From assembly GCA_947623955.1 (NCBI GenBank), contig CANQIP010000002.1, forward strand, positions 1 to 64,000: a stretch of DNA of 64,000 nt. The letters run 5' to 3'. The notes beneath the pieces were generated by a model. It worked only from the letters and a program-made list of their open reading frames with translations, did not search any database and was not told the DNA's origin. Both the position numbers and the translations under genes were made by a program. The DNA is from an uncultured Clostridia bacterium. Its GTDB lineage: Bacteria; Bacillota; Clostridia; UBA1381. Positions 32,025 to 55,330 of this stretch are shown here, piece after piece (the first letter of the stretch is position 1; every line of letters begins with the position of its first letter).

Positions 32025-32195
32025 GCCTCTCCTTGAGGAGAGGTGGCATCGCGTAGCGATGACGGAGAGGTGGCAACAAATTTAAATAACCACCTCTCAG
32101 TCGCCTCCGGCGACAGCTCCCCTCAAGTGAACCACACGCTCTGCGTGTGGTAGGCGTGTTGCGGAGCAACAAACGCCGTAGTAAAGGGGAGCCAT
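32025..32195. repeat. MITE-like repeat, family A, interrupted copy
   Basis: GCCTCTCCTTGAGGAGAGGTGG start, GCATCGCG/CGATGAC and GTCGCCTCCGGCGAC hairpins, and AGGGGAGCC end. The terminal palindrome CTCCCCTCAA...AAAGGGGAG is split by the 56-bp element at 32127-32182. Confidence 0.75.
32127..32182. repeat. 56-bp two-hairpin element nested in a family A repeat
   Basis: Starts GTGAACCACACGC, forms CCACACGC/GCGTGTGG and GGCGTGTTGC/GCAACAAACGCC hairpins, and ends ACGCCGTAGT. A copy of the same length sits at 44115-44170 inside a different repeat family. Confidence 0.75.
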
Positions 32196-42946: not shown

Positions 42947-43651
42947 TTATTGTGAGTATCTGAAGTCTTTTATTTTTATGTTGGGTTCTACAAACACACG
43001 GTTTGGATTGGCATCATGATTGGCTGAAAATTCAACTCTGATCTGTAAAACTCCCGCGACAGAAATTTCAAACGGTATGGGGTTTGTTGTATTGCGCATG
43101 GCGGGAGACTGATACAGAACTCTGTCGTCCTGATCGTAAATGGTTACTTTTCCTTCCGCTTCGTTCAGAGGTGTGTCACTCATATCAATAGTACCCGCTA
43201 CTTTTTTCGCAAGTCCGTTTAGGTTATATGTAATAGATGCTTTTACTTCGTCGCTGCCTTTATAGACATCATAATAAACCGTTTTTGTTTCACTGTCTAA
43301 ATAGATGCCGTCACCGTCTAATTTGTCATATCCCGTTGTTGCAAAATATACATCTTCATTCATGGAACCGTCATCATTTATGTAAATTGTTAAATTATCA
43401 CCGTCCCATGATACCTGTTTGCCCATCGCCTCTCCGATATAGCGAAGAGGAACATATGTGCGTCCGTTATAGATAAACGGCTTGCTGTCGTCGGGTGTTT
43501 CCGACTTGTCCTGTCCGTCGATTATAATACGGTAATTGTCATAAATAACGCCGATTGCCTGCTCAACAGGCTGTGCGCATACCGTCAGTATTGCGCTTGC
43601 CGCAACAGCAGCCGCAACTCCGATTAAAAATCCTTTTACTCCCTGTTTCAT
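42947..43651 (-). CDS. Secreted protein with copper-amine-oxidase-N-like stalk domain
   Basis: 234 residues from the ATG at 43651, supported by AAAGGA and by a signal peptide starting there (MKQGVKGFLIGVAAAVAA). Residues about 30-90 form a stalk/CuAO-N domain (FIYNGRTYVPLRYIGEAMGKQVSWDGDNLTIYI). The C-terminal part is a beta-sandwich resembling NPCBM-like modules (NGLAKKVAGTIDMSD, RNTTNPIPFEISVAG, LQIRVEFSA). Cell-surface, function unknown; such domains often accompany carbohydrate or cell-wall enzymes. Confidence 0.82.
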   Translation of the reverse strand: MKQGVKGFLIGVAAAVAASAILTVCAQPVEQAIGVIYDNYRIIIDGQDKSETPDDSKPFIYNGRTYVPLRYIGEAMGKQVSWDGDNLTIYINDDGSMNEDVYFATTGYDKLDGDGIYLDSETKTVYYDVYKGSDEVKASITYNLNGLAKKVAGTIDMSDTPLNEAEGKVTIYDQDDRVLYQSPAMRNTTNPIPFEISVAGVLQIRVEFSANHDANPNRVFVEPNIKIKDFRYSQ

Positions 43652-43909
43652 TTTTGTCGTCCTTTCAAATAAATTTGTTTTTGCTTTTGTCCGCTCTGAT
43701 AAATAATTGTTTTGCTGCAGTTCCCCTTTCGATATTTTATATATTTTATTTCGATAAATCAAATACTTTACGCCGCCCCCTTCCCGATTTATCGGAATAA
43801 TTGTTTGACGCAAATAAAAAATGCGTGACCTCACTTAACGCAAAGCCACGCAATAAAAAACGCGGTCTTTGACATTAAATGTTGTCACACATTTACCCTC
43901 AAAAATATA
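43652..43909. other. AT-rich gap upstream of the stalk-domain gene
   Basis: No gene, tRNA or known riboswitch was recognised. The sequence is AT-rich and should hold the promoter of the stalk-domain gene, but no convincing -35/-10 pair was found. Confidence 0.4.
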
Positions 43910-43981
43910 ATTTTACCAATAATGGAATATAGTCAAAGTAACCTACGCTTTTTTTATAGCGTAAGCCATTATCGGTAAAAT
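43910..43981. repeat. Nested inverted repeat (large hairpin)
   Basis: ATTTTACCAATAATGG (43910-43925) pairs with CCATTATCGGTAAAAT (43966-43981), one mismatch in 16. Inside, TACGCT (43944-43949) pairs with AGCGTA (43958-43963). The loop contains a T run. Could be a small RNA, a terminator-like hairpin or a miniature transposable element. Confidence 0.6.
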
Positions 43982-44098
43982 ATTAAATTAAGTAAATATG
44001 TGACTTTTATATTATATCACTTTTCTGGAAAATTGTAAAGGATAAAATAAAAAGGCGGCACGCTGCCGCCGGAGGACGAACATGGTTTGCCTGAAGTA

Positions 44099-45937: not shown

Positions 45938-46049
45938 GCCTCCCCTCGAGGGGAGGTGGCATTGCGCAGCAATGACGGAGAGGTGGCAATGGATTTAGAA
46001 AAGCCACCCCTCAGTCACCTTCGGTGACAGCTCCCCTAATAGGGGAGCC
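45938..46049. repeat. MITE-like repeat, family A, copy 2
   Basis: GCCTCCCCTCGAGGGGAGG and GCTCCCCTAATAGGGGAGCC termini, GCATTGCGCAGCAATGAC and GTCACCTTCGGTGAC internal hairpins, GAGAGGTGG...CCACCCCTC inner pairing. About 112 bp. Confidence 0.8.
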
Positions 46050-46074
46050 ATACAGAAAACGCCGCACATCGTTA

Positions 46075-46186
46075 GCCTCCCCTATTAGGGGAGGTGGCAT
46101 TGCGTAGCAATGACGGAGAGGTGGTAATGGATTTTGAAAAGCCACCTCTCAGTCGCCTTCGGCGACAGCTCCCCTCAAGGGGAGCC
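46075..46186. repeat. MITE-like repeat, family A, copy 3
   Basis: Same length and orientation as the preceding copy, 25 bp away, with compensated changes in the stems (GTCGCCTTCGGCGAC). Supports spread or duplication of an intact 112-bp unit. Confidence 0.8.
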
Positions 46187-46253
46187 TTTCTTGCGTGGCG
46201 ACGTTTTTTTCGGAAAATGTCGAAGAATGACGATTATTGTAAAACTGTTTTTC

Positions 46254-46282
46254 TTTACAAATTCGACTTTTTATGATACAAT
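46254..46282 (+). promoter_or_regulatory. Promoter of the microprotein leader RNA
   Basis: TTTACA, 17-bp spacer, TACAAT. The predicted start (about 46289) is the first base of a long hairpin. Confidence 0.7.
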
Positions 46283-46287
46283 TTATA

Positions 46288-46455
46288 TGCTAAATTCTAT
46301 AACTTAATAAGGTAGAACAAACTTATTTGCGTTATGCAAAAAATGCGGTCATTACAATGAGGTTTGTCTAGCTTATTGTTGTAGAATTTAGCAGTTCCGA
46401 CCGCGTTTTTATGCGCGGTCTTAGAGATAGGGCTGCGCTTTTTTATTTTTTATAA
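46288..46455 (+). ncRNA. Candidate attenuator or structured leader RNA
   Basis: A long imperfect hairpin closes with TGCTAAATTCTATAAC (46288-46303) and GTTGTAGAATTTAGCA (46378-46393). It is followed by two mutually exclusive stems: GACCGCG/CGCGGTC (46399-46405 with 46414-46420) and GCGCGGTC/GGCTGCGC (46413-46420 with 46431-46438), the latter followed by a T-rich run, so it looks like an intrinsic terminator. Downstream is the ribosome site of a 42-residue protein. I do not recognise a named riboswitch class. Confidence 0.6.
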
Positions 46456-46469
46456 AGGGGGTGAAGGAA

Positions 46470-46598
46470 ATGCCGCAGTACGAGGAGATGTACTACAAGC
46501 TTTTTAACGCCGTGACCGATGCGATCGAGGCGCTTAAAACAGCACAAAAAGAGGTTGAGGATATGTACATAAAAAACAAGGAAGAAAAAAGCGAGTGA
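46470..46598 (+). CDS. 42-residue conserved-looking microprotein
   Basis: ATG-to-TGA frame encoding MPQYEEMYYKLFNAVTDAIE and 22 further residues ending in KNKEEKSE: an amphipathic, highly charged helical peptide. The ribosome site AAGGGGGTGAAGG precedes it, a structured leader and promoter lie upstream, and a terminator downstream. It resembles small helical proteins often annotated as hypothetical in Clostridia and their mobile elements; I cannot name a function. Confidence 0.75.
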   Translation: MPQYEEMYYKLFNAVTDAIEALKTAQKEVEDMYIKNKEEKSE

Positions 46599-46629
46599 AC
46601 AATTAAATTATCCACTCGCGAAAATCTAC

Positions 46630-46654
46630 CCCCGCAGCAAAGCCGCGGGGTTTT
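46630..46654 (+). terminator. Terminator of the microprotein gene
   Basis: CCCCGC/GCGGGG stem around AGCAAAGCC, followed by TTTTGCTT; 32 bp after the microprotein stop and just before the convergent icd stop. Confidence 0.75.
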
Positions 46655-55219: not shown

Positions 55220-55330
55220 GCCTCTCCTTGAGGAGAGGTGGCATCGCGAAGCGATGACGGAGAGGTGGCAACGGATTTTTAAAACCACCTCTCAGTCGCC
55301 TACGGCGACAGCTCCCCTCAAGGGGAGCCA
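55220..55330. repeat. MITE-like repeat, family A, copy 4
   Basis: GCCTCTCCTTGAGGAGAGG start, GCATCGCG/GCGATGAC and GTCGCCTACGGCGAC hairpins, CTCCCCTCAAGGGGAGCC end. Intact terminal palindrome, unlike the interrupted copy at 32025-32195. Confidence 0.8.

Follow-up and report, generated by a model that had tools for sequence, protein, structure and literature searches.

The window, by which we mean the entire 64,000-nucleotide stretch of uncultured Clostridia DNA that was analysed, contains a leader RNA with a promoter of its own upstream of a gene for a 42-residue microprotein, which converges on icd (Table 1). An earlier note on this DNA had read the promoter as TTTACA-N17-TACAAT and had placed a long hairpin at the 5' end of the transcript; both features are found, the promoter with an additional TG before its -10 element. 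Transcription is expected, from the promoter sequence, to start at about 46288, at the base of the hairpin (46288-46393), and the transcript spanning 46288-46420 folds at -56.3 kcal/mol (z -9.9), with none of 200 shuffled sequences as stable. Further downstream, the terminator at 46413-46438 forms 11 bp (-16.3 kcal/mol) followed by six T. The segment 46413-46420 can pair either within this terminator or upstream with 46399-46406 (8 bp, -14.1 kcal/mol), in agreement with the choice between antiterminator and terminator proposed in the note.

The conserved start of the microprotein is ATG 46470 and not the upstream GTG 46461, and AlphaFold predicts a single helix covering residues 4-41 (pLDDT 92). 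The helical 42-residue ORF described earlier is indeed in place, as is a ribosome binding site. The claim that the gene has its own terminator needs qualifying: the hairpin behind it lies between two convergent genes, and its T run on the plus strand is no longer than four. Searches of Pfam, NCBIfam and PHROGs gave nothing usable for the microprotein, and it was not found in phage and plasmid collections. Its own genome encodes three copies (two paralogues besides the window gene), and matches occur in 14 of the 61 genomes of the order. The leader precedes the paralogues at three places in the own genome and also in many relatives, and nearly all homologues carry the same leader layout in differing sequence. 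Leaderless homologues occur in several settings, one of them beside conjugation genes (TrbL and a T4SS coupling protein; L035, L045 and L046); some of these proteins are lengthened by inserts of roughly seven residues that resemble coiled-coil heptads.

Table 1. Features of the two RNA copies in the window and of the adjoining genes
Feature	Position	Strand	Basis or remark
Promoter TTTACA-17-TACAAT, TG before -10 (extended -10)	46254-46282	+	Layout common to most homologous units
Base stem, 5' arm, TGCTAAATTCTATAAC	46288-46303	+	Base-stem scoring across units
Upper 5' arm of hairpin, hypervariable, including P' side of tip	46304-46338	+	Orthologue identity
P, apical strand AAAAATGCGGTC, predicted pseudoknot partner of D	46339-46350	+	Complementarity and permutation tests
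Upper 3' arm of hairpin, variable, still paired	46351-46377	+	Orthologue identity
Base stem, 3' arm, GTTGTAGAATTTAGCA	46378-46393	+	Base-stem scoring across units
D, GACCGCGTTTTT, predicted partner of P (pseudoknot) or T (antiterminator)	46399-46410	+	
T, terminator 5' arm, alternative partner of D	46413-46423	+	
T', terminator 3' arm, plus T run	46428-46444	+	Terminator helix covaries in 31 homologues
Ribosome binding site AAAGGGGGTG	46454-46463	+	Sequence
42-residue microprotein, start ATG 46470, stop 46596-46598	46470-46598	+	42 codons
GC hairpin with TTTT, separating the microprotein gene from convergent icd	46630-46650	+	Sequence
Second RNA copy	43816-44004	-	R1 53.5 bits, E 9e-11 in window; fold z -9.0
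Second copy, base stem, P and D	44004../..43884; about 43952-43932; 43873-43856	-	Sequence
Second copy, terminator T and T', then T run	43852-43840; 43834-43822	-	Sequence
Second copy, promoter	44039-44011	-	Sequence
Secreted Cu_amine_oxidN1/NPCBM-domain protein behind second copy	42947-43651	-	

A covariance model of the RNA tail only, R1, built from 31 microprotein leaders, recovered matches in 54 of the 61 genomes of the order, with up to 33 per genome and 18 in the window's own genome; a second copy lies on the minus strand of the window (Table 1). The matches outnumber the microprotein genes by far, and the copies within one genome differ from each other. Copy number varies even within a genus, G013 and G015 carrying many copies and G009, 97% complete, none. 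Across the class, R1 matched in at least 94 of 391 genomes and at least 54 of 222 genera (E<=1e-5), counts that are lower bounds, with 13 candidates scored per genome. In a sample of the phylum, drawn for the most part from outside the class but partly from within it, none of the 397 other genomes matched at E<=1e-6, a result that speaks for the specificity of the model. In viral contigs, nine matches to DNA patterns appeared, none of which was confirmed by the covariance model. One of the DNA patterns for the RNA matched named records; these are metagenome-assembled genomes of uncultured Clostridia with isolate names 'Lapin', presumably denoting a rabbit source. That a widespread structured RNA family exists in Clostridia is, in our view, close to certain, and it is apparently undescribed. 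Rfam 15 gave no match in the window at the gathering score, in keeping with the earlier note, which had recognised no riboswitch class; at E<=10, the best hit to the plus-strand leader was L20_leader, with 20.2 bits against the 58.7 needed, and at E<=0.5 the 20 homologous loci examined gave only scattered sub-threshold matches to unrelated families. No description of the motif was found in the literature, where the 224 motifs of Weinberg and colleagues were compared only via Rfam.

The central element of the RNA is one that the earlier note lacked, a predicted pseudoknot between P, in the tip of the long hairpin, and D, between that hairpin and the terminator. In the window copy the two strands are complementary over 12 bp with one G-U pair, and with this complementarity D acquires two rival partners, P and T, one of them in a pseudoknot. 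The RNA can accordingly be written as four helices that compete in a chain: P':P (the local tip hairpin), P:D (the pseudoknot), D:T (the antiterminator) and T:T' (the terminator). P:D reaches -17.3 kcal/mol as a duplex, with the pseudoknot cost excluded, and is thus comparable in strength with the D:T and T:T' helices given above, which fits what a switch needs; opening of the tip costs about 4.3, and the P' tip hairpin is weak in this copy. Among 133 non-identical homologous units, P could be located in nearly all, about 40-100 nt upstream of the U run of D, with a consensus of about AAAAAYGCRNGCUYU.

These 133 units, with 76 non-redundant ones as a second set for P:D, served for the pairing tests, in which kinship among copies was ignored. 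P:D scored 26.85 in cis against 20.55 (sd 0.31) with D permuted, and none of 10,000 permutations reached the cis value; the 76 non-redundant units gave the same outcome. Since the whole upstream region was searched for each D, the choice of P confers no advantage. Likewise, D:T scored 22.1 in cis but 15.4 with partners from other units (0 of 10,000 permutations), and P':P 16.5 against 12.4 (sd 0.24; 0 of 5,000 permutations), with P positioned by its match to D and not to P'; the tip hairpin P':P is formed in 114 of 128 units. The base stem scores at least 24 in 118 of the 133 units, as opposed to 6 of 133 after shuffling, and the terminator helix covaries among the 31 homologues. Counts of pair types show many two-sided changes, although the alignments were themselves found by pairing and the counts are hence illustrative only. 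The elements and the four rival helices recur and coevolve across the family. In the pseudoknot, most positions beyond the A/U run vary freely, and conserved unpaired nucleotides are few besides this run (in P:D) and an AACA linker, so that no ligand pocket is apparent. A general mark of attenuators that use an intrinsic terminator is found here, namely conserved antiterminator and terminator helices that covary, have one arm in common and lie upstream of a gene, and the covariation of P:D, D:T and P':P lends strong support to the attenuator-like switching proposed in the earlier note. Among the findings that would have refuted that note, by its own account, is the lack of the microprotein at homologous loci. 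This is what most copies show, yet the RNA is real and does covary.

The long hairpin itself evolves unevenly, as a comparison of one orthologous site adjoining icd in six species illustrates. There, the promoter, base stem, P region, tail and ORF retain a mean identity of 91-98%, in contrast to 57% for the 5' arm and 70% for the 3' arm between the base stem and P; arm lengths range from 29 to 57 nt (5') and from 28 to 39 nt (3'). Despite this turnover the orthologous hairpins still fold, with 67-76% of their bases paired. Any one of three processes could produce this pattern: drift under pairing constraint only, template switching, and diversifying selection. The designation of the hairpin as a "sensor" is unproven, and its arms are its least conserved part. 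Separately, a dispersed palindromic repeat with the core CTCAGTCRCCTTCGGYGACAGCTCCCCT lies at 45939-46190, 32095-32123 and 55290-55318, with four copies in the window against none expected by chance, and similar sequence occurs near many loci of the genus.

Of 143 units with flanking sequence, 80 (about 57%) are followed by an ORF, 59 (about 40%) by none evident, and 4 lie at contig ends. An ORF was counted if it had at least 37 aa, an RBS-like motif and a start within 170 nt of the terminator; these gene calls are heuristic, with a small number of the 80 appearing spurious and a small number of true genes possibly overlooked. Recurrent downstream genes encode BspA-type LRR, CHAP, Cu_amine_oxidN1, S-layer-like and lipoprotein-like secreted proteins and DUF6809, together with the microprotein family and a conserved 77-aa family. 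The view of the RNA as part of "a unit for a microprotein" was therefore too narrow, most homologous RNAs preceding other genes or no evident gene. The family of about 77 residues (..SDFEAIEEIV.IFEKY.ID.G.RHDF) stands behind the RNA at L195, L062, L066, G024:C10 and G049:C30 and has no Pfam or NCBIfam match. On contig C1 of the own genome, the gene behind two RNA units in tandem (L094/L101) encodes a small protein that contains cysteine and has a weak MazE/AbrB-like match. Units often stand alone or in tandem; in genome G013, an RBS and then a 6-7 codon ORF, M(K)(R/Q)LKIP, lie behind several stand-alone units (L136, L141, L144 and others), and behind others comes a repeated stretch, GGAGGGCAGAGAACGTAAGTATGTCGGCTTACATTACAATTGAATATAGA. 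D:T and P:D are as strong in stand-alone units as in gene-linked ones. We considered stand-alone units as decaying leaders and rejected this, their pairing being no weaker; it is above all this equality of pairing without a gene that a purely cis-acting attenuator fails to explain.

We favour, with moderate confidence, the reading of the window leader as one copy of a new class of transcription attenuator that acts in cis, and we infer action on transcription and in cis for the switch as such. Each copy has its own promoter, from which the transcript is expected to start at the base of the long hairpin with P in its tip, and D, a U run and the intrinsic terminator T:T' follow 3' of the hairpin. 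Pairing of P with D would free T:T' and end transcription (OFF), whereas pairing of D with T would block the terminator and let RNA polymerase reach the gene (ON). By holding P in the local tip hairpin, P' would favour the open state, so that P':P and D:T together would constitute ON. Leader-peptide (ribosome-mediated) attenuation was rejected on the sequence: the expected start of the transcript already coincides with the base of the hairpin, and, by inspection, the 8-codon ATG frame that covers P (46335) lacks an RBS and has no counterpart in the paralogous leaders.

The stand-alone units, with pairing constraints equal to those of the others, also bear on a reading that we judge rather unlikely, namely a family of trans-acting small RNAs in which the terminated transcript of about 110-240 nt is the product, read-through into the gene is secondary, and P or D pairs with other RNAs, perhaps with the strands of other copies. 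Each unit does have its own promoter and terminator, many occur alone or in tandem, a base-paired 5' end would stabilise a free RNA, and cross-pairing between units is slightly higher within a genome than between genomes (15.3 against 14.1). Yet within single genomes P:D scores much higher in cis than in trans (19.9, with at most 17.3 on permutation, P being placed by its own D), the same direction as in the full set; moreover, D:T is a typical antiterminator with no obvious use in a finished small RNA, and about 57% of units stand before an RBS-bearing ORF, with target classes that recur. Stand-alone and gene-linked copies might also form one RNA network, in which terminated copies exchange strands in trans at P or D and the arms are under diversifying pressure; we regard this as distinctly unlikely, and if true, it would mean dozens of individually tuned RNA switches per genome for surface proteins and microproteins.

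Two further readings were weighed. A ligand riboswitch, in which the pseudoknot or tip would bind a small molecule such as a surface or biofilm signal, would accord with the switch architecture, the conserved A/U run and AACA linker, and a regulon rich in surface proteins like that described for the SLH riboswitch candidate (PMC6429828). The freedom of the pseudoknot to vary beyond the A/U run, the scarcity of conserved unpaired bases and the lack of a match to any Rfam riboswitch nevertheless make it very unlikely. The many copies, tandem and stand-alone, with their hypervariable palindromic arms and the resemblance of P to T and of D to T', also recall a non-regulatory repeat, a dispersed cassette of promoter, hairpin and terminator in which template switching in replication keeps the inverted repeats alike. 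This we consider extremely improbable: promoter, base stem, P, D, T and T' remain 91-98% conserved across the six species while the arms turn over, copies differ within a genome, and they are placed recurrently just ahead of genes with an RBS.

With about 33 copies at most per genome, presence in about a quarter of the sampled class genomes and no Rfam entry, the RNA would, as a cis-acting attenuator, rank among the commonest undescribed cis-regulatory RNAs of bacteria. A single switch mechanism, directly open to testing through the many natural variants of the RNA, would then link the expression of surface proteins in uncultured Clostridia with a family of unannotated microproteins.

Among known systems, the attenuators of trp-type amino-acid operons resemble this RNA in that their helices exclude one another in succession, the last choice being between antiterminator and terminator; unlike them, the RNA described here has no RBS-bearing leader peptide, its genes are not biosynthetic, and its first strand occupies the apex of a long hairpin and would form a pseudoknot. 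In the antisense-RNA attenuators of pT181-type plasmids, a strand of a hairpin decides between a pre-emptor helix and the terminator. A hairpin strand would be similarly decisive here, and RNA-RNA control is conceivable, but the copies are chromosomal, many and dispersed, and pair best in cis; promoter-like sites on the minus strand of the window leader are weak (9/12), and no antisense promoter was identified there. The cyclic di-GMP riboswitches of Clostridia are transcriptional switches ahead of surface-protein genes, from which the present RNA differs in its architecture and in matching no Rfam riboswitch model. The SLH riboswitch candidate, in the description given for it, comprises 80 examples from Synergistaceae, Clostridia and Negativicutes and in some Clostridia precedes genes for surface-layer proteins and for unknown ones (Stav et al. 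2019, PMC6429828). SLH-like proteins likewise follow several copies of our RNA; compared with that candidate by description only, the RNA reported here is far commoner and stands mostly ahead of other genes.
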